From contig CAKJVC010000030.1 in NCBI GenBank assembly GCA_918026815.1, positions 1 to 64,000 of the forward strand: DNA of 64,000 bases, written 5' to 3'. The first letter of the stretch is position 1; every line of letters begins with the position of its first letter. The position numbers and the translations under genes were made by a program. The notes beneath the pieces are model-generated. The model was not told the DNA's origin and did not search any database. It saw nothing but the letters and a program-made list of their open reading frames with translations. The DNA comes from Chalara sp. BL73 (lineage: Eukaryota; Ascomycota; Leotiomycetes; Helotiales). Positions 44,312 to 55,173 of this stretch are shown here, piece by piece.

Positions 44312-46440
44312 TATTTGGGTGGTCTCCAACTAGTCAAGGCTTTGTTGGAGAACAAAGCAAAGGCTCAGCTCGGGCCTATAATTATTTTGTACGCCATATG
44401 ACGTTAAGTATTTAAATGAATATCACTGACAGCAAATACAGGTGTCATACCAATCATGCTCTTGATCAGTTCCTGGAGGGACTTGTGAATGAGGGAATTG
44501 ATATTGTAATTCGGGTAGGCGGCCAAAGTAAATCTACTATACTTGCGAACAAAAATCTCCGCATTCGATCTCAATCTGAAGCAAAAACAATGACCGAGAG
44601 AAGCATTCTTCGCGAAACCATTTCAAAATTAGAGGAATATGAGAAAATGATAGCACATAAAATCCGGCTACTACGAGATGTTGGAAATCTCGAATGGCAT
44701 GCTACTGGGATCTATTTGCAAAACACTTATCCGCAGGTATACAGCCAATTTGTAATGGACAGTAATGGTGATGATGCCACAGGTGGCGCTGGTGATGCAT
44801 TTGCCCAGTGGCGACTGGGATCTTCATCGAGAACTGTTGACGAGCCGGAAGAAGCAATAGAAATGATTTTGAAGAAAGCAAATAAAGACATACACCAACT
44901 GTCGAATCCGAGCCGTCATCGCCTACTTAAATGCTGGATGAGCCAGATTTTTTCACATACAGGTAAAGAGCTTTTTGAGCTGTTAAAATCAAATAACGAA
45001 CAAAAGCAGCATCGAAGCAACGTATACGGAGAGATTGATAGACGGTGCTTGAAAAATGCCGATGTTATTGGAGTTACCACAGCGGGGTTTGCTCTTAGGA
45101 TATCCATCCTACGGCACATAGATGCAAAGGTGACAATCTGTGAAGAAGCAGGACAGATTTTAGAAGGACATTTGATTTCAGCTCTCTTGCCTAGCTTAGA
45201 GCATCTTATTCAAATCGGCGACCATTCCCAGCTACGTCCACCTATCAATGACTATAAACTCTCTGCTGAAGGTCCATATGGCAGTCATTTCCAATTGGAC
45301 AGGAGTATGTTCGAGAGACTGTCTACTTCCAATCATGGGAACCCCCCGCTATCTTTTCTGAATGTACAACGGCGCATGAGACCAGAGATATCAAGACTCC
45401 TCAAAGGGACAATCTACCCGGCATTGATAGATCATGAGTCCGTCAAAAATATTCCAGACGTAGTTGGCATAAGGAAAAGCGTGTATTGGCTTCACCACAC
45501 GAATCAGGAGGATAGTTTCGGAGGAGATCGTGTACAGAAATCTTATAGCAATGATTGGGAGGTCGAGATAATTCATAGGCTTGTTCGACACATCGTTCGC
45601 CAGGGTGTTTACAGTATCGACGACATTGCAATTCTAACACCATATTCTGAGCAGGAACATAAGTTGAAGGTAAAATTAAACGCCTTTTCAGGTGGAGATG
45701 ATCAACTTCTTGTTCCCAAAGCGGCAAATCGCGTACCAGGCCGAAAGAATTGTCAACGATTTCGAGTCTCGACCATGTAAGTAACGTCTAGTATTCGAGC
45801 TCCAATTTACTAATTCTGGATGTAGTGACGGCTTTCAAGGTGAGGAAGCCAAGATTAGCGTTATTTCTCTTGTAAGAAGTAATAATGCCGGGAAAGTAGG
45901 GTTTTTGAGCTCTAGGAATCGTATTAACGTACTTTTGAGGTCAGCACTGACGCCCCTTCCATGCTAAAATCTAAAGTAAATTTTCCTAATGTTCGCAGCC
46001 GAGCGCAACATGGTCTTTTCATCATTGGCAACACCAATGTTGCTGAGCGCGTTCCAACGTGGTCTAAAGTCATTAGTATGCTCCGTACCTCAAACTCGGT
46101 CGGTACTACATTGAGTCTTCGCTGTCCTCGCCATCCGGATGTGAGAATGGAGGTTTCGCAACCCGAGGTTAGTCTATTTGTCCTTTGCTATATTCCTGAC
46201 CGTTTCTGATTATTTAGGATTTTGACGTCCTTAGTCCGGAAGGAGGCTGTACAAGAGTTTGCAACAGGTAAAAATCAAATCAAATAAAGCGATTATTCAA
46301 ATCTACTTACACTCCAATAGGCCCATTCATAACTGCTATCATTCATGCTTGAGTAGATGCCACTCGGAATACATTCATAGGGCTGTGAAGTGCCCCCAAC
46401 GGGTTCTACAATCGTGTTCAGAGGTCGGCCATTAAAGGAC
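44312..46440 (+). pseudogene. ZNFX1/NFX1-type SF1 RNA helicase, 5' and 3' truncated
   Basis: Five exon pieces join through GT-AG introns at 45777-45825, 45940-45998, 46168-46217 and 46268-46320. The first readable piece is GGLQLVKALLENKAKAQLGP, then a stop and CHTNHALDQFLEGLVNEGI. The helicase core has TICEEAGQILEGHLISALLP (Walker B-like), QIGDHSQLRPP, LNVQRRMRPEISRLL, IAILTPYSEQ, DGFQGEEAKISVISLVRSNN and LLSRAQHGLFIIGN. The Walker A segment (GPPGTGKS) is absent. The tail begins an NFX1-type Cys/His array (CYHSCLSRCHSEYIHRAVKC) and ends abruptly. Such helicases work in small-RNA pathways and heterochromatin in other fungi. All remaining splice sites are good. Confidence 0.88.
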
Positions 46441-46567
46441 GAACAGCCGAAAATGGTTCCCGACTACAACTTTGCAGCAAAGAGACCATGGTCTACAACT
46501 CCAGAGAATTGGTCACAGATAAGTCTAAAGGATGATGGCATTTACTTAGCAATAAAATTAAACGACA

Positions 46568-46690
46568 ATTTACTAACCTACCACTCAAAAATCCTGATAT
46601 TACTGAGATACCACCCAAAAAGTGTTTTATTACCAACCTACCACCCTAAAGTATATAATTACTGAACTACCACCCTAAAAATTGAAGTTA
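46568..46690. repeat. 31-bp diverged tandem repeat (ACCTACCACYC)
   Basis: Four units share CTACCACCCTAAAA or close variants, spaced about 31 bp apart. They lie between the helicase remnant and the MULE start. Confidence 0.8.
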
Positions 46691-46909
46691 TTCCCAACCG
46701 AACTACGTACATAATCACTTGCATATTGTATAGTACCTGCCCTGCATACGCCATCCCGCAATCAAATTAAAGCATTTCCTAATCATTTTGCACTCAATTC
46801 CCAAAGCTATTTAGACTGTTTCAAACCTGATTTCAGAAGCTAGTTATTCACAGTCCTTCACAATGCAACTCGGCGACCAATTTGAGTCAATTGACGCTGC
46901 CCGTGAGGC

Positions 46910-47050
46910 TAGACTGCGCAGAAACCCACGGGGCGGGCCGGGGCCCCCGACCCATGGGACCCCGTGGGTCGGGTCTTCGAGGCTCGCTTCCCCCGTGGGG
47001 TGGGTTGTATATTTTGACCCCAACCCGCGGGACCTCAATGGGGCCCCGAT
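46910..47050. repeat. Left hAT terminus: TIR and GC-rich subterminal repeats
   Basis: After the 9-bp TIR come repeated ACCCAYGGG, CCCGTGGG and CCCCGTGGGGTGGG motifs in both orientations. hAT transposases bind short subterminal repeats of this sort, so these are the likely binding sites. Confidence 0.8.
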
Positions 47051-47366
47051 AAGATTAACTAAATATAGAAACTACAGTCAAACTCCTCTACAAGAATGTA
47101 GGGCGGACTGGCGGAATTTTAAAAATATACGAGGTATTCTAGTATCGAGATGATTCTTTCCAGTTTTGGCATTGATTTTTCTATGTGCACACAGGTTAAA
47201 CAAGGCTATTTTGTATACTTGTTTTTACAAAAGTACTTGAAATGCAAAGTGGTTGATTAGTATAAAAATTAGTATAAAAATTAAACTTCAAATGTTAAAT
47301 CTAAACATATTGTAATAGAGTGGAAAAAATTGTGAATTATAATAATACAACACTAATATTCTAAAA

Positions 47367-50179
47367 CTAATTTTTTTTTTGCTTTTTTGACCTGTGAATG
47401 CCTATTGGAGTATCCGGCACAATATTACCAATACCAGGAGTCGGAAGTCGAGGCAGCTCTTGACTACTATTACTAGATAGTTCCCAGTTCGTTGTTTCAA
47501 TTGACGGTTCGCGGCGATTCCTAAGTGTATTTTGAAACTGAGTAGTCGAAAGTGGCTGATTTTGATGAATTGATTGACGTAAAGATTTAGAAATCTTGTA
47601 ATCCCAGCGTTCTTGAGCACGACGAGTTCGAACTTCTTCGTTTCCTTCTGGTTCTTCATCACTAATATAGTAATGATTTTCCCAAAGATCAATTTGATCA
47701 AGTTGGACTTCAAGATCATTTTCTCGCGTTTTAATTTCCGTTTCCATATCTTCAAGTGTCATATCCTGGATATTAATAGTTGAAAATAGTAGATTTTGAA
47801 GCTCACGTGTTCGTGAATGTTCAACGAGCGAATGATAAACCAAAAGAAGCGACCGAATAGTTGTCGGTTGAAGCTGGCCACGGCGATATCCGCATATATC
47901 ACGTGCAAAACTAAAAGCACGTTCTACTCCAACACCGGCCATCGGGATACAAAGTAAGTCTCTAGCCATTGCTGATAAGCCAGGAAGCTGTGTTTCAAGC
48001 GATTTCCAAACAAGTAGCGGTGATCGATTATCAGGCTCTAAAAAAACAACACAAAGATTAGTATAAAAATTAGTATAAAAAGTAGAATTGTAAACATACT
48101 CATAGCCAGCCATTCATCAATTTCAGAAGGAGAAAAGTCATCATCTTTGCGATAAGGGTTCTGAATGTCTCGAGTAAAGCGCTTGCGACTTAATGCCAAT
48201 GCTAAAGGGTCGTGATTAACTTCTCGAATTTGAGAAAGTCGGTCAGCATTCGTAGACTTTTTTTTATATTCCGTATCGTATAACGACCGAAATTGACGCT
48301 CAAATTCTTTGGCCCAATCAACTGTTTTGAAATTAAGCCAGCAGTAATCTTCTTCAAAGCATTTTAGCTTCGATTTTGGATCAAGAATTGCTCCGATGCC
48401 ATACAAACTACCAAGACTACTATATGTTTTGTTATAGTAAGTATCAAGCTTGGCTTCTGCAGCGTTAATCGCACCAATTAAATCTTTTACCCAAAGTTGA
48501 GCAACAGACTTTTTGGTTAATACTCGGCGAGATTCTTGCAAGTGTTCAAACAATTCATCGTAAATTGATAAAGCATAAGGCAATGTTATGCTTGTTGTTT
48601 TGCCGATTGTTGTTGTAAAAAAATTGAAAGGACGTAACAAATCGGCCAAATAGCCAAGTTTTTTCCATTCTAATGCAGAAAAAGAAAAAGGCTTAGCAGG
48701 ATCGTATGCACTGCAAAATTGATTGATAGACTCTTTAAGACGCAATGCACGAAGAATCATATGCACTGTTGAGTCCCATCGAGTGCATACATCAATTAAC
48801 AATGTAAGAACTGGATCATTCGGAGAAGATGAATCTCTGATTTGTTCTTGTTGAACTCTTTGAAATCGATGTTTCCGCTGTGCACTGGAATTAACAAGAA
48901 TAGCAAGCTTTCGAATCTAATATAAGATTAGTATAAAAATTAGTATAAAAGTCACGTGTTACATACCTTTGCTAGTATATATGGAATACCACGTTTGTCA
49001 CTAGCTTTGATTCTCTCAAGATCAGACAGCTCTTTTTCTGCTACCCAATTCCGAACAAATGTGTCGTTAGTAGGCCTCAATTGAACAAAGCCCAAAAGTG
49101 CTTGAAGACTAAGCTGAATCACATGCGATAAACACGGCACGTGTTGGACTTTCCTTTTTAGAATACTATTAGCTTTCAAAGCTTCTTGTAAGTATCCGTT
49201 GATTTCGAGAACCATTGTAGTATTCGAACTCGCATTATCAGTTGTAATTGAAACAACACGATCAAAAAGATTGTGCTGTTGAAAAACGTTATTGACAACT
49301 TGAGCAAGCGCATTTCCGGAATGAACGTTTACTAAACTTTCAAATCCTATTAATTCTTGACAAAGAACCCATGACTTATCAATATAGTGAGCTATTATAC
49401 CCATAAATGATAGTCTTGTTGTACTAGACCAGCAATCAAGAGAAATTGCAATTTTGCTTCCAGGAACAACATTTGAAAGCATGTTCTGTTCAAGTTTGAC
49501 TGATTGTTCCATTAGTCGATTCTTCATAGTTGTTGCAGAAGGAAGTTCGAAATTTGGATTTTGCATAACAGCTAGCTTTCTCCATTCAGGATTTTCGACT
49601 GCGCGGAAAGAAGTACGAAGTGAAACAATAGTTGCAAGAACCTGGTCGTGAAATGCTTGCTTCGTAAAGATTGGTTGCTATTAATATTAGACATTATACT
49701 AATATTTATACTAATCTACTTACAGAGATAGCGTGAAACATGTCTTCCACTTTTTTCTGCCTTGTATTACTTTGGCTAGAATAAACAAAGCATTGCCGAG
49801 ACGCTATATGACCAGACAAAGCTTTTGTGCCGGTATTCCGCGTATTTGGATGTGCGAGAACCTTGTTGCAGTTTTGACATATGACTTTAGGCTCTCCGGT
49901 GATCCGGTGTATTCCTTGATCGAATTGTTTCCAAGCAATAGATTTTCGATTTTGAGATTTCCAATTTAATTGCTTTACCAAATCAATTGATTGGTTTGCA
50001 ACTGCTTGAACTGCCCATTGTGTACTTAACCACCATTCAACAAACTTATCGTGATATTCGAGTTCCCATCGAAAATATAGGTTTTTTGGACCAATTTGCG
50101 AAAATAGTAAATTGTCAGAAGTATTTGGCTCAAATGAGCTAAAAGGATCAGAAAAGTCTTGCGAATTGCTTGACTCCAT
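47367..50179 (-). CDS. hAT transposase, 884 aa, four exons, intact
   Basis: Exons 50179-49724, 49677-48967, 48916-48100 and 48037-47367 join at GT-AG introns of 46, 50 and 62 bp; the total of 2655 nt is a multiple of three. The protein starts MESSNSQDFSDPF. A BED-like zinc finger lies near residues 95-130 (VICQNCNKVLAHPNTRNTG with a later H and C). The catalytic triad can be placed at Asp233 (SLDCWSS), Asp299 (TTDNASSN) and Glu700 (GVGVERAFSFARDI), by analogy with Hermes. The C-terminal hAT dimerisation region is complete (SPLLVWKSLETQLPGLSAMA to YRRGQLQPTTIRSLLLVY), followed by an acidic and then basic tail (RSKKQKKN). All expected parts are present, so it should be able to move the element. 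Confidence 0.95.
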
Positions 50180-50416
50180 AGCAACAAAAGTGTGCAAGTA
50201 AAAAAAAAAAGCATCAAATCGGAAAGAAAAAACAAGTATTTAAACACAAGTTAAATTACTACTTCCAAAAAATTGTACATATTAAAGGTTATAATTAAAC
50301 TTCCAAAAATTAATGTAAAATATAATGATTAGTATAAAGATTAGTATAAAATTGAATATATCTGCTTAAAGTTCCTTGCTTCATTTGTTGTATATACTTA
50401 AAAACTACATATACAT

Positions 50417-51721
50417 TTACAGCTTACGCGGCTTTTGAAAGCTGCTTTGTAAACCAAAGAATGCTTTAACGATTGTTTGACTTAAAGAATTGTCTGTCAT
50501 CAAAAACAAATCATTATAAGCGGGGAAAATACGTTCGTATGATCCATCTTCCGGAATTTCCGTAGCATATACCATATCAAACGCTTCTCTATGGCCTGTC
50601 AACGAATCGGAGAAGCCGAATCCTGTGTCATTTAACTTATCGTCGGCTGGCCACCAATTTGCAGGGCCCGGCAGATCGATCCACTCTTCATTTCCGTATG
50701 CCCATGCTGCAAGATTTTTCCAAATTGCCTTTTCTCCTTGAGTAAAGTATCTTTCAGGAGTTTTATACGCATAGAATTTGCTATATCAGTTAGCAGATTA
50801 GTATAAAAATTAGTAGAAATTTGTACTTCTTGTAAATGTAAGGACAGCTTGTTCTTTCCAAGTATTCCTGTCCACCAGCAGCAAGCTTTCGGATTTTGCG
50901 GAACAAAGATCGACGGCTTCGGCGCCATTTTCTTTGCCAAAACTTAAATTCAAGCTTTTTGGCATCCTGAAATTGTATTAGCGTTATACGAATCATTATA
51001 TTAATCTGAAACTTACTAAAATGGATCGTTTATGCTTGGCAATCCCGTCATTTTTCAACTCTTTAGCAGATTTGCCGACAACTGCTTTATCACCGTTTTG
51101 CTTTTCATTCAATCTCCACATATGCTCAAACTCGTATTCGTCTTCCGATTCATACTCAATATCTTCCCATGCTGGATTTCCATCATCATCAATTGCATAT
51201 AGGCCACCAATTTCTCCATAACCCAAAGCTTTTGCCACAGATTTCCAATCTTTGCCATCTCGTTCACTATACAGGTTAGTATAAAAATTAGTATAATCAA
51301 AATTAAACGAACCGCTTTGTTCTAACTTGCAAAGCAGACTGCTCAATCATTCGCTTCTGCTCGGCAACAGATGCGAGTGCAAATTCGGCAGACTTTTTGA
51401 GTACTTTTTTTCTGTATGTAATTGCTGCTTGATCTGCGGCTTTCGCTTTTTCGATCTGATTTTGAATACTGTTGCTTTTTATAGCTTCAAGTCTTCTTCT
51501 AGCTTTAACAGTATGCACATTGGTAGAAAAACTGCCCGGAGATTTGCGCTTGCGTTTATTGGAAGAACCGATTTGCTGCGAGGAATCAAGATCCATATCA
51601 AATTCATGATCTGAATCATCAGAAATGACAATGATATCCTTGAAACCGATTAGTATACAGATTAATATAATATTTCAATAAAAATTACCTGAGGAGGTTG
51701 CTTTTCGAAAGGTGAAGCCAT
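50417..51721 (-). CDS. hAT cargo protein, 370 aa, SUMO-interaction-like motif, unknown function
   Basis: Exons 51721-51689, 51638-51313, 51266-51017, 50966-50827 and 50780-50417 total 1113 nt, a multiple of three; the second intron uses a weak donor (GTTCGT). A further intron (51780-51833) lies in the 5' UTR. Residues 12-21 read DIIVISDDSD, a hydrophobic core plus acidic patch that matches SUMO-interaction motifs. NKRKRK near 40 is a likely nuclear signal, and residues 65-125 look coiled-coil (KARRRLEAIKSNSIQNQI). The C-terminal half is rich in Trp and acidic residues (NLAAWAYGNEEWIDLPGPAN; WWPADDKLNDTGFGFSDS). I recognise no family. The gene is transcribed away from the H3-like gene and towards the transposase, and ends about 240 bp before it. 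Confidence 0.85.
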
Positions 51722-52244
51722 ATTGGAAAGTAACGCAACCGAAAAGTAGGCGTATTTTGCAAATTTCAACTCGCAAGAACTAGAGCTTCAAAAATTAGTA
51801 TAAAGATTAATATAATACACCAAAAACACGTACTGCGATAGATGTTTGACTTTGTTCAGATTTAATAAGTTGGTGCAAAAAGAATGAATGAGGGAAAAGT
51901 ACGCGTTATCCTGAAAAATAAGGCAGTCGCGTTTTTATGCCTCGATTTTAAGGCATCCAACTACTTTTTTTAAACCTGACTTCTTTTAACCTTCAATTAA
52001 ATTTACCAACAACTACACCATACACAAGTATGTATTATATTTATCTTTTTTATATTCTATTTTTATATTAATCATTATACTAATTCTTTATAGTCTTCTC
52101 GTCGAAATCACAAAGCTATAATTTCAATTTCACGTGTCAATATTCACATTCACCTTCACCTTTTCTGAAAATAATTTGCGACTTTGCACAGGTACATATT
52201 ATTCTGTATTATACTAATATTTATTCTAATCTTAATAGGTTACA
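51722..52244. promoter_or_regulatory. Shared divergent promoter region of the two cargo genes
   Basis: The 523 bp between the two start codons contain 5' UTR introns for both genes: 51780-51833 for the minus-strand gene, 52028-52093 and 52192-52238 for the H3-like gene. That leaves about 190 bp (51834-52027) as the likely core promoter. The head-to-head layout is like that of ordinary fungal H3-H4 pairs, except that the partner here is not H4. Confidence 0.65.
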
Positions 52245-52793
52245 ATGGCACGTACCAAGAAAATAGCTACCAAATCTGCTCGCAAACCCTCTGCCAAAAC
52301 CTCTGCCAAAACCTCTGCCAAAACCTCTGCTAAAACCTCTGCAAAAGCTGTACCAAAGAAGAAATATCGATTGAAACCTGGCAGTAAGTTGATTAATATA
52401 ATAATTAGTATAAAACTAACATTTAAACGTAGCCAAAGCACTTAGAGAAATCAAACGATACCAAAAAGCACTGAGCTTTTAATCCCAAAAGCTCCATTTA
52501 CTCGACTAGTTAGGGAAATAATGTATGATATTACGTCTCGACACGCATTTCGCATTCAACTTAGTGCTTTACAATGTCTCCAAGAAGCCGCAGAATCTGC
52601 TTTGGTAGCTGAGTTCGAGCGTAAGTTATTTCATATAAATACATTATACTAATATTTATACTAATATTACTTTAAAGTCACAAATCTTGCCGCAATCCAC
52701 GCTAAGAGAGTTACTATTCAAGTAAAGGATATGCATTTGGTTCAAAGAATGAGAGAGGGAATGACGGGCTACAAGTACCCAGGCCGGTGTTAA
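52245..52793 (+). CDS. Divergent histone H3 with CENP-A-like loop 1, carried by a hAT transposon
   Basis: Exons 52245-52383, 52433-52620 and 52678-52793 are bounded by GT-AG introns. The tail starts [10 protein letters not shown], aligning with ARTKQTARKS of H3 (Lys4 and Lys9-Ser10 kept, Arg8 to Thr), then has five AKTS/AKAV units from a 12-bp repeat. The fold domain is unmistakable: [37 protein letters not shown] and [20 protein letters not shown]. Between LVREI and LQE there are 19 residues, against 17 in canonical H3 and 19 in CENP-A, so loop 1 has the centromeric-type extension. A five-A run at 52463-52467 must be six for the frame to continue; this is either a disabling deletion or a homopolymer error. 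The predicted protein is about 147 aa with a short C-terminal tail, [11 protein letters not shown]. Confidence 0.88.
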
Positions 52794-52997
52794 AGAATCA
52801 AACGCAGTTCATACAAAGGAAATGGGTTAAGCAATGGAGTTATTAAAGGTATACACGCTAGCGATAGGGCGCTAAGCACATAATAAAATTCACAAACCAA
52901 AATTTTAATACGTTTATGTCGCGTAGCTTTTGATTAGTAGACTTATTAGTATAACTTCTCTAACTGTACAGCAACTATTGTAATGTCACGTGTAAAT

Positions 52998-53138
52998 GTA
53001 ATGGGTGCTTGGCACCCCATCAAGACCCCATGGGGTGGGGTGGGTGCTTTTGATAGACCCCAACCCATGGGGTGGGACCCCGACGGGTGGGGTCAAGTAG
53101 GTGAAAACCCGCCCCGTGGGACCCCAGTTCGCAGTCTA
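52998..53138. repeat. Right hAT terminus: TIR and GC-rich subterminal repeats
   Basis: GACCCCATGGGGTGGGGTG, CCCATGGGGTGGG and CCCGCCCCGTGGG crowd the last 130 bp before the terminal CGCAGTCTA. The array is an inverted, diverged copy of the left end. Confidence 0.8.
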
Positions 53139-53322
53139 CGTGAGGCAATCAAGACCTACGTTTTAGGCCAAGGCGAATCCTACAAAACAGTCTCGTCGGA
53201 CAAAAGTCGGTATATTCTTGCTTGTAAAGATCGTGAATGCAAGTTTCGTATTCGAGCTACTCGGTCTAAGAAAGATATTATTTCAACCACAGAATTAGTT
53301 GCTTACTCCTGTACACCAGCTA

Positions 53323-55173
53323 ACGTATTCCACAAGCGAGCGGTCCACCCAAGCGAGCGGTCCACCCCAACCAAAAAGCGCGACCTATAATCTTTAATAT
53401 ACAATGCAACAACCATCTTCTCTTCAATTACCTCATAAAGAGGGTAAAATATCTCTTGCTATAAATGCTATCAATCACGGCCAATTTCAAAGCGAACGAA
53501 GCGCAATAAAGACGTACGACGCGGTGCGAACGACGCTCCGACGACGACGCGCCGGAATCCGTCCGCGACGCGATTGCACGCCCAATTCGAGAAAGCTTAC
53601 AGAGCTAGAAGAATCAGTTATTATTCAACATATCCTAGACCTAGATTCACGAGGGTTTTCGCCCCGATTAAGTGCCGTGGAAAATATGGCCAATAACCTT
53701 CTCCGGGCTCGCAGTGGAGGCAAGGTTGGCAAGAATTGGGCAGGGAACTTTGTCAAGCGCTCTCCAGAGCTTAAAACACGATTCAATCGCAAGTACGACT
53801 ACCAGAGAGCCAAGAACGAAGATCCAAAGGTTATCCGGAAGTGGTTTAGACTCGTACAGAATACTATCGCTAAGTACGGTATCCACGAAGACGACATCTT
53901 TAATTTCGACGAAACAGGCTTTATGATGGGCATCGCTTCCACGGCAAAGGTTATTACGGCCTCAGAGCGACGCTATCGACCTAAAATGGTACAGCCAGGA
54001 AATCGCGAATGGGTTACAGTGATCCAGGGAATCAACGCGCAAGGCTGGGCCATTCCCCCATTTTCGTAATCTTCGCTGGACAATACCATCTCTCAGCATG
54101 GTACAGCGAAGAAATACCAGGTGATTGGGTTCTCAGTGTAAGCGAAAACGGCTGGACGACAAATGAGCTTGGTTTTGAATGGCTTCAGCACTTTGAGAAG
54201 CACACAAAGAGGCGTACAAAGGGCACATATCGTCTCCTTGTCATTGATGGCCACGAGAGCCACCACTCGCTTCAATTCCAGGATTTCTGCAAAGAAAACA
54301 ATATTATTACACTCTGTATGCCTCCACATGCGTCTCATTTCCTTCAGCCACTTGATGTAGGCTGCTTTGCGCCTCTTAAAAAGGCGTACGGCGGCCAGAT
54401 TGAGGACTTGATCCGGAGCGGCATTAACCACATTACTAAACTTGAGTTCCTACCAGCATTTCGAGCAGCATTTGAAGCCTCTTTTACTAAAAGCAATATG
54501 CAAGGAGGCTTTCGAGGTGCAGGGCTCGTTCCGTACGATCCAGAGGCTGTAATTTCAAAACTTGATATTCAATTCAGGACTCCAACACCCCCTATCGCAG
54601 AAGACGTTCCCTGGGAGCCGAAAACACCAAGCAACTCTCTTGAATTAACCTCGCAAACGGAGCTAATTAAAGTTAAAATTGCACGCCATCAAAACAGCTC
54701 TCCTACAGCCATCAATACAGCAGTTGATCAGGTCCTCAAGGGCGCGCACAAAATAGCTCATCAGCTCGCGATTCTTCAGGCGGAAAATGCTGCTCTTCAC
54801 AAGGCTAACGAACTTGTAACACAGCGAAAACATCGCCAAAAAAAGCGAATTCAGCAGCGAGGGTCTCTTACAGTTCAAGACGGCCTAAATTTAATTGATC
54901 AATCGGACATTAATACCCAAATTTTGGAGGATATGCGTCAAAGTAGTAATAGTTCACATGCGACTGTGGGACGTCAAAGGCGATGTGGACGCTGCCGCGA
55001 GCCAGGACATCGCATTACAACATGTTCCCTAGGTCCTCAAGACATTGTAGATTAATTATTTTTAATTAGAATTAAATTCCTCAAGGCGTTGTAGAAATAT
55101 ATGTATTTAAAGTGGCTAGGTAGAGCTAAGGTGGACCGCTCGCTTGGGTGGACCGCTCGCTTGTGGAATACGT
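53323..55173 (+). mobile_element. pogo-type transposon, 1851 bp, TA target, nested inverted repeats
   Basis: TA flanks both sides. The ends begin ACGTATTCCACAAGCGAGCG inward on both strands, and each terminal repeat contains the AAGCGAGCGGTCCACC unit twice in tandem. It lies 185 bp from the hAT, inside the same MULE gene. Confidence 0.94.
53404..55055 (+). pseudogene. pogo transposase with C-terminal zinc knuckle, one frameshift
   Basis: It starts MQQPSSLQLPHKEGKISLAI, a psq-type helix-turn-helix (AINAINHGQFQSERSAIKTY), followed by a Tc5/CENP-B-type DNA-binding domain (SRKLTELEESVIIQHILDLD; GKNWAGNFVKRSPELKTRF). The DDE core shows NFDETGFMMG, VIDGHESHHSLQF and LQPLDVGCFAPLK. A coiled coil (LAILQAENAALHKANELV), a basic stretch and a CCHC knuckle CGRCREPGHRITTC end the protein. 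One frame change near 54062 lies beside CCCCC and TTTT runs; otherwise all 550 residues are open. It resembles the copy at 57345-58934 throughout. Confidence 0.9.

Follow-up and report, generated by a model that had tools for sequence, protein, structure and literature searches.

A hAT Transposon of Chalara sp. BL73 Carrying a Histone H3-Like Gene and an Array of Paired Motifs

Introduction

Fungal hAT transposons bearing a histone H3 gene were published in 2013 and 2019. In Pyrenophora tritici-repentis, a hAT of ~5.6 kb was described with a transposase, a central open reading frame (ORF) and an H3-like gene between its terminal inverted repeats (TIRs), and 26 very similar copies of the H3-like gene, as well as expressed sequence tags for it, were reported (Manning et al. 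2013, PMC3538342). According to the available parts of that paper, the protein fits neither H3 nor centromeric H3 (CenH3) fully and has insertions in its tail, and the authors asked whether altered chromatin helped transposons to amplify. An H3-bearing hAT damaged by repeat-induced point mutation (RIP) was later reported from Pseudocercospora fijiensis and five relatives, six Mycosphaerellaceae, and in the P. fijiensis element the authors found no other domain and no direct or inverted repeats, as far as the available text goes (Dhillon et al. 2019, PMC6710886). Here, we analyze a 64,000-nt stretch of the helotialean fungus Chalara sp. BL73 (contig CAKJVC010000030.1, positions 1 to 64,000 of the forward strand; hereafter the window), which contains a complete hAT element with a transposase gene, a second gene called ORF2, and a histone H3-like gene called H3L. 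The original prediction, made from the sequence of the window, held that a cut-and-paste transposon with its own nucleosome component was not a described class of cargo; the two published systems refute this.

A further system to compare is VANDAL21 of Arabidopsis, which is a Mutator-like element (MULE) and not a hAT. Its accessory protein VANC21 binds the sequence YAGTATTAY in the non-coding parts of VANDAL21, introns included (PMC5735166), and VANC21 causes loss of DNA methylation over VANDAL21, as described in the accessible sections of the reports (PMC5735166, PMC10398659).

Against this background, the cargo class is known, while an array of paired motifs, a separate H3L lineage with tail changes, relatives of ORF2 in leotiomycetes, and RIP in the host are new. 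The motif array, the argument from the tail, and an anti-silencing reading of H3L were not found in the available text of PMC3538342 and PMC6710886 or in open-licence PMC listings. In addition, nothing on a transposon-encoded histone or on anti-silencing by fungal transposons appeared among the open-licence PMC titles and abstracts listed, and no H3-bearing transposon is described in the portions seen of PMC4994206, PMC8616336, PMC9145170, and PMC12859917. We tentatively favor the reading that this hAT transposon is autonomous, was active recently, and brings along a kit for its own protection (anti-silencing) of the VANDAL/VANC type.

The hAT Element and Its Copies in the Genome

The element and its parts in the window are as follows; the exon borders of all three genes are models from sequence.

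46910..53138, no strand: complete hAT element, 6,229 bp, from genome matches, ends and target-site duplications
46902..46909, no strand: left target-site duplication, 8 bp, CGTGAGGC
53139..53146, no strand: right target-site duplication, 8 bp, CGTGAGGC
46910..46918, + strand: left TIR, TAGACTGCG, 9 bp, perfect
53130..53138, − strand: right TIR
47367..50179, − strand: hAT transposase gene, 884 aa; exons 50179-49724, 49677-48967, 48916-48100, 48037-47367
50417..51721, − strand: ORF2, 370 aa; exons 51721-51689, 51638-51313, 51266-51017, 50966-50827, 50780-50417
52245..52793, + strand: H3L gene, 147 aa in intact copies; exons 52245-52383, 52433-52620, 52678-52793

The boundaries had been predicted from an 8-bp duplication, TIRs, and the restored frame of an interrupted MULE, and they stand: the termini are TAGACTGCG and CGCAGTCTA, which form a 9-bp perfect TIR, and the joined MULE flanks give a peptide that matches PF03108 (DBD_Tnp_Mut) at 7e-13. 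The transposase, expected to be intact, is indeed open over its four exons in the window copy. In the copy at locus L022, it matches the dimerization domain PF05699 (Dimer_Tnp_hAT) at 1.5e-09, with 37.9 bits against a cut-off of 21.4. For the RNase-H-like catalytic fold, the match to PF14372 reaches 20.0 bits, under the cut-off of 27; for a BED zinc finger, no Pfam match was found at E 1, while a C-x2-C...H-x5-C run can be seen by eye. The 8-bp target-site duplication, the short TIR, and the C-terminal dimerization domain are features of a hAT.

The genome searched comprises 58.66 Mb in 199 contigs, and the locus and copy counts below are lower bounds. The element has at least 24 scored matches in its own genome, among them 13 full-length ones at ~100% identity (rounded). 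Of the 24 copies fetched, 22 retain both ends and are flanked by a perfect 8-bp duplication, and all 22 duplications are distinct; therefore, the element is not a chance arrangement. The other two copies (L023 and L031) lack one of their ends; L023 (C6:20377-26513) shares its site with L020 (C7:2878-9112), the left flanks being identical over 210 bases, which points to a segment duplicated either in the genome or in the assembly. Protein searches added further loci on C3, C17, C33, C62, C73, and C114, giving at least 30 loci with ORF2, and searches with the element ends returned 31 left-end and 32 right-end matches. The single unique copy that was thought capable of weakening the cargo idea is, thus, not what the genome contains.

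H3L is also a constant part of the mobile element. It lies within 4 kb at 29 of 30 ORF2 loci, the exception on C53 being truncated on that side, and ORF2 is present at all 29 counted H3L loci. Genome-wide, at least 107 hAT dimerization matches were found, 20 in this family and 87 outside it; a single one of the 87 lies less than 8 kb from an H3-like match, and it is located outside the family's copy on C148, past its end. Neither a full-length copy without H3L nor an H3L gene with insertion ends of its own, the two observations proposed as marks of a passive passenger, was met in these searches, which scored the best candidates only.

The element resembles the P. tritici-repentis hAT, likened by its description, in the three-gene layout between TIRs and in the dimerization domain, but an abundant 2.3-kb chimeric short form occurs there that was not met here, and no motif array is described in the available text (PMC3538342). 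Similar to the P. fijiensis element, it has an 8-bp target-site duplication, TIRs, a high copy number, and a host with RIP. It differs in that the P. fijiensis element, as far as described, measures ~9.5 kb with a 20-bp TIR and holds one or two intronless H3 copies, the extra ones RIP-inactivated, whereas the present element carries a two-intron H3L with open copies (PMC6710886).

The Histone H3-Like Gene

The original prediction recognized two extra genes, one of them an H3 relative, and this was confirmed: the spliced H3L of L022 matches PF00125 at 8.7e-30 and, in sequence comparison only, solved H3 chains at 4e-33. The H3L of the window is frame-shifted in exon 2 by a one-base homopolymer difference, as assembled. 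Its introns follow nucleotides 139 and 327 of the coding sequence, while the host H3 introns are at nucleotides 25 and 383, with no shared position. Compared with the host H3 (R8, T11, G12, G13, and K14), the H3L tail has T8, A11, R12, K13, and P14. Among the matches listed (120 of 7,654), the closest is a Bisporella protein (P0001) at 90%, which has the same five tail residues, and more distant H3L-type proteins have other tails. H3L-type proteins with a similar C-terminal stretch were listed from Tricladium (62%), Clarireedia (65%), Pseudogymnoascus (59%), and Talaromyces (55%). No relatives of the Bisporella H3L or of ORF2 were found in viral contigs.

A tree was built from 17 rows picked from the matches plus the two H3 genes of the host; it is unrooted and small and has long branches. 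Within it, a 100/98 split separates H3L and five relatives from canonical H3 together with the CenH3-like gene of the host (L034), and H3L accordingly appears to be a lineage apart from canonical H3. Two assignments are not supported. H3L as a canonical H3 disagrees with the altered tail (R8, T11-K14, and others) and with the 100/98 split, and H3L as a centromeric H3 disagrees with the position of L034 across the same split, a comparison with one CenH3 on a long branch. Of the roles originally suggested, a chromatin role is still the best supposition, while a role at centromeres finds no support, since H3L does not group with the CenH3-like gene of the host.

The Paired Motif Array

The non-coding parts of the element contain a repeated paired motif, TTATACTAAT-N2-TTATACTAAT, which consists of two 10-bp half-sites 12 bp apart and was scanned for with up to 3 mismatches.

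47256..52954, no strand: span of 15 paired motifs (motif scan), at 47256, 48057, 48927, 49694, 50328, 50797, 50984, 51275, 51649, 51794, 52063, 52209, 52392, 52644, and 52933 (weak)

A scan of the whole window for TTATACTAATNTTTATACTAAT (up to 3 mismatches) gave 15 matches, all inside the element, and 0 in 100 shuffled windows. At least one pair is present in each of the 13 non-coding segments (9 introns and 4 intergenic stretches; 2,018 bp), while 300 segment shuffles, dinucleotide-preserving or, where that failed, by plain base shuffling, gave a mean of 0.04 pairs and a maximum of 1. In each of the 14 close pairs, the half-sites share a strand and their spacing is exactly 12 bp. Half-sites with at most 1 mismatch number 30 in the element versus 1 in the remaining 57.8 kb of the window, and in the genome 122 exact 21-mer matches were found, with 97 of the 100 listed sitting in element copies. 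As in VANDAL21, an accessory gene is accompanied by a short, AT-rich, and nearly element-specific motif that is repeated in non-coding DNA including introns. Unlike the present case, however, VANC carries DUF1985/DUF287, VANC binding is proven, and no histone is described in the available text (PMC5735166); ORF2 would be a putative binder of the motif here.

Since the motif resembles the branch point (TACTAAT) and a pair occurs in 9 of 9 introns, on the coding strand in 6 of them, the pairs might be splicing signals with no role as DNA sites. We regard this as very improbable: the other 3 introns carry the pair on the opposite strand, so a branch-point role does not explain the motif, and, moreover, 6 of the 15 pairs lie outside introns, the 14 close pairs keep their fixed 12-bp spacing, and, as read by eye, neither the H3 gene nor the CenH3-like gene of the host has the motif in its introns.

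Some motifs were found in other settings. In a RIP-decayed left end (L038, C114:117300-117650), four tandem 12-bp motif units replace the two of the window, as expected because a tandem unit can expand. Outside the family, an exact pair occurs at C9:1384443 (L037), in an intron-like place within a MULE-like transposase frame as judged by eye, and another at C124:13814 (L035), in very AT-rich DNA. Furthermore, a fragment at C124:33500-38150 (L036/L039) ends in GTCCGCAGTCTA and has a paired motif ~260 bp inside this end; a matching left end was not found in 4.65 kb, and the fragment is either a related family or a decayed relative.

It has also to be considered that the pairs are internal sites for the transposase or the transposition complex, with H3L and ORF2 shaping the element for excision. 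This would agree with the GTCCGCAGTCTA-ended fragment, whose one pair lies near an end, and with two gene-less elements at C127:1034560-1035279 (720 bp) and C183:16851-17563 (713 bp), which have the family's ends, retain one degenerate motif pair, and have a middle unrelated to the hAT element. The GC-rich octamers CCCNNGGG are, however, confined to the terminal 250 bp, with 5 at the left end, 3 at the right end, and 0 in the body, and would be better candidates for the transposase's own sites, and the motif occurs in every intron without an obvious role in pairing the ends. We, therefore, consider sites of this kind unlikely.

ORF2 and Its Relatives

ORF2 is open in the window copy and has no Pfam family match. 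The ORF2 family found no solved structure at E 10, and a Pfam scan of six family members returned two weak unrelated families only, in one member each; DUF1985/DUF287 of the VANC type were not found in these six. A single-sequence search gave two relatives, from Chlorociboria (44%) and Tricladium (41%), while a profile search gave six matches: one metagenome protein and five named proteins, which belong to four genera of leotiomycetes; no pleosporalean protein is among the six. This distribution suggests, short of proof, a leotiomycete host. Tricladium varicosporioides also has a second, remoter relative (P0125, 31%), which indicates that ORF2 families have split within one genome. An H3L-type protein (62%) occurs in this species alongside the closer ORF2 relative (41%), a co-occurrence at the level of the species.

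RIP, Copy Age and Movement in Trans

Eight older copies (L024-L030 and L032) range from 96% to 83% identity, and their differences are nearly all C-to-T and G-to-A; therefore, the host has, or had, RIP-type mutation. In L032, changes affect 440/752 CpA, 357/687 CpT, 171/408 CpC, and 58/438 CpG. In the decay profile of old copies, CpA and CpT are hit about equally, CpG is nearly spared, and ACTA sites are hardly touched. The copies of the young burst show no RIP-type change pattern. In the host genome, one Pre-SET match and four C5-methylase matches on three contigs were found.

A footprint, in which the motif would be shielded from RIP, was rejected. RIP-type change affects 6/192 CpT cells in motifs and 286/1350 in other non-coding DNA, and it is also low at ACTA sites outside motifs (17/392), so the low rate in motifs is a context effect.

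Two damaged copies, L025 (C27:94639-100870) and L026 (C18:4276-10500), have 226 RIP-type changes in common, which are all of those in L026, and they differ in their duplications and flanks. A RIP-killed copy with three broken genes, therefore, moved later in trans, and the proteins of the family act in trans. The gene-less elements on C127 and C183 have the same duplication AGCATGAC and the same few flanking bases and are, thus, counted as one insertion, probably copied with its surroundings.

Reading-Frame State and Selection

An open transposase occurs in 3 of the 24 copies fetched, an open ORF2 in 8, and an open H3L in 4, of which one is RIP-changed; L022 is the only copy in which the three genes are open together. 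For the 14 young full-length copies (L009-L022), the corresponding numbers are 3, 8, and 3. The young copies L009-L021 differ by few substitutions and mostly by one-base homopolymer differences, in mutually incompatible patterns that do not fit a single tree. Such patterns could stem from slippage, from gene conversion, or from sequencing error in the repeats, and part of the gene breakage may, therefore, be sequencing error.

Selection was tested by comparing L009 or L012 with L022, with transition bias allowed for, on few changes. In ORF2, 6 changes are silent and 1 is a replacement (P=0.0024); the corresponding numbers are 7 and 1 for ORF2 and H3L together (P=0.0009) and 11 and 6 for the transposase, and the three genes pooled give P=3e-5.

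Proposed Anti-Silencing Function and Its Alternatives

Since the motifs occupy introns and spacers, as in VANDAL21, we infer that ORF2 may read them and that H3L may be the means of opening the chromatin. In the mechanism that we envisage, ORF2 or, less likely, the transposase would bind the paired, 12-bp-spaced motifs across the non-coding parts of the element, and H3L would join host H4 in nucleosomes whose tail the H3K9 methyltransferase of the host would methylate poorly. Both proteins would act in trans on every motif-bearing copy and keep the family in open chromatin, in which the transposase could be expressed and the element ends reached. In favor of this reading are the constant linkage of ORF2 and H3L, the motif array, the tail changes, the excess of silent changes in ORF2 alone and with H3L pooled, the Pre-SET and C5-methylase matches and RIP-type decay of the host, and the parallel with VANC21. 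Binding of the motif, entry of H3L into the chromatin of the element, a tail refractory to H3K9 methylation, and a benefit from anti-silencing are each putative. The most specific version would give the element a sequence-specific chromatin of its own: ORF2 would read the sites and deliver or retain H3L nucleosomes that cannot be properly methylated at K9, copies would be marked as unsilenceable in a host equipped with both RIP and H3K9 methylation, and introns would, at least partly, serve as site carriers. We regard this version as possible but doubtful.

Studies in Neurospora are relevant to the H3L tail. With an extra H3 gene, substitutions at R8, T11, G12, G13, and K14 were semi-dominant for loss of DNA methylation, and in vitro, R8A and G12P abolished the activity of the methyltransferase DIM-5 while T11A greatly lowered it, according to the available parts of the report (PMC3248561).

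Several observations weigh against the anti-silencing reading. In the same source, as far as seen, G13M only slightly lowers DIM-5 activity in vitro and K14R does not, mutant genes targeted to his-3 were weaker, with R8A effective at 1 of 3 regions and G12 at none, and T11A is the sole H3L substitution identical to one tested in Neurospora (PMC3248561). The H3L tail also retains K4, K9, and S10, of which K9 and S10 are the troublesome ones, and in other species the relatives of H3L are known here from proteins alone and not in a hAT context. Compared in the same context, motif cytosines escape RIP no more than others do, and with 8 of the 24 fetched copies RIP-damaged, any protection is incomplete. 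Moreover, none of the three genes is needed in cis, since both the RIP-killed copy and the gene-less 720-bp derivative moved. Among the 14 young full-length copies, the assembly shows frame shifts in H3L for 11, the window copy included, and in ORF2 for 6. H3L by itself, with 1 silent and 0 replacement changes, allows no test alone.

Part of this evidence would suit a passive passenger, in which a single transduplication picked up an H3 copy together with a second gene, both carried along ever since as the element was copied. Both earlier reports, in their available text, framed the H3 gene as a capture and left its function open (PMC3538342, PMC6710886); the frame-shifted H3L copies favor a passenger if the shifts are real, and so does the movement of the RIP-killed copy in trans. 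On the other hand, the excess of silent changes in ORF2 and H3L together speaks against a passenger, H3L stands across the 100/98 split from canonical H3, and the presence of an ORF2 relative and an H3L-type protein in T. varicosporioides makes the pairing look old. We, therefore, consider a mere passenger somewhat unlikely.

In Neurospora, semi-dominant effects on DNA methylation are described for some mutant H3 genes (PMC3248561, as far as seen), which would also allow H3L to be a general dominant-negative histone, lowering heterochromatin everywhere with no sequence-specific delivery, and the motifs to serve transcription. This is quite improbable, since it leaves both the near-confinement of the motif to this hAT family and the constant companionship of ORF2 and H3L unexplained.

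Neighboring Sequences in the Window

Downstream, the element adjoins pieces of a Pogo/Tc1-type transposase (53404-55055, + strand) with HTH_Tnp_Tc5 and DDE_1 (1.6e-28) matches; these pieces seemingly cut into the MULE, as nested insertions. To the left, a reading frame at 44416-45780 (+ strand) matches AAA_11/AAA_12 at 4.2e-18, and an AT-rich stretch at 46560-46690, left of the insertion, holds several imperfect ACTAACCTACCACCC-like repeats, as seen by eye.

Implications

The hAT element of Chalara sp. BL73 is of more interest than a captured housekeeping gene on a transposon would be, and it leads to a specific and testable chromatin hypothesis. The tail changes of H3L fall on residues that the H3K9 methyltransferase reads; together with the ever-present ORF2 and the paired sites arrayed through all non-coding DNA, they offer a concrete, testable answer to the question of why hATs carry H3. 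If the anti-silencing reading is true, fungal transposons would have evolved a sequence-guided anti-silencing of the VANDAL type with different proteins and with a histone as the effector, and H3L would also be a naturally occurring variant with which the control of heterochromatin by the H3 tail could be studied.

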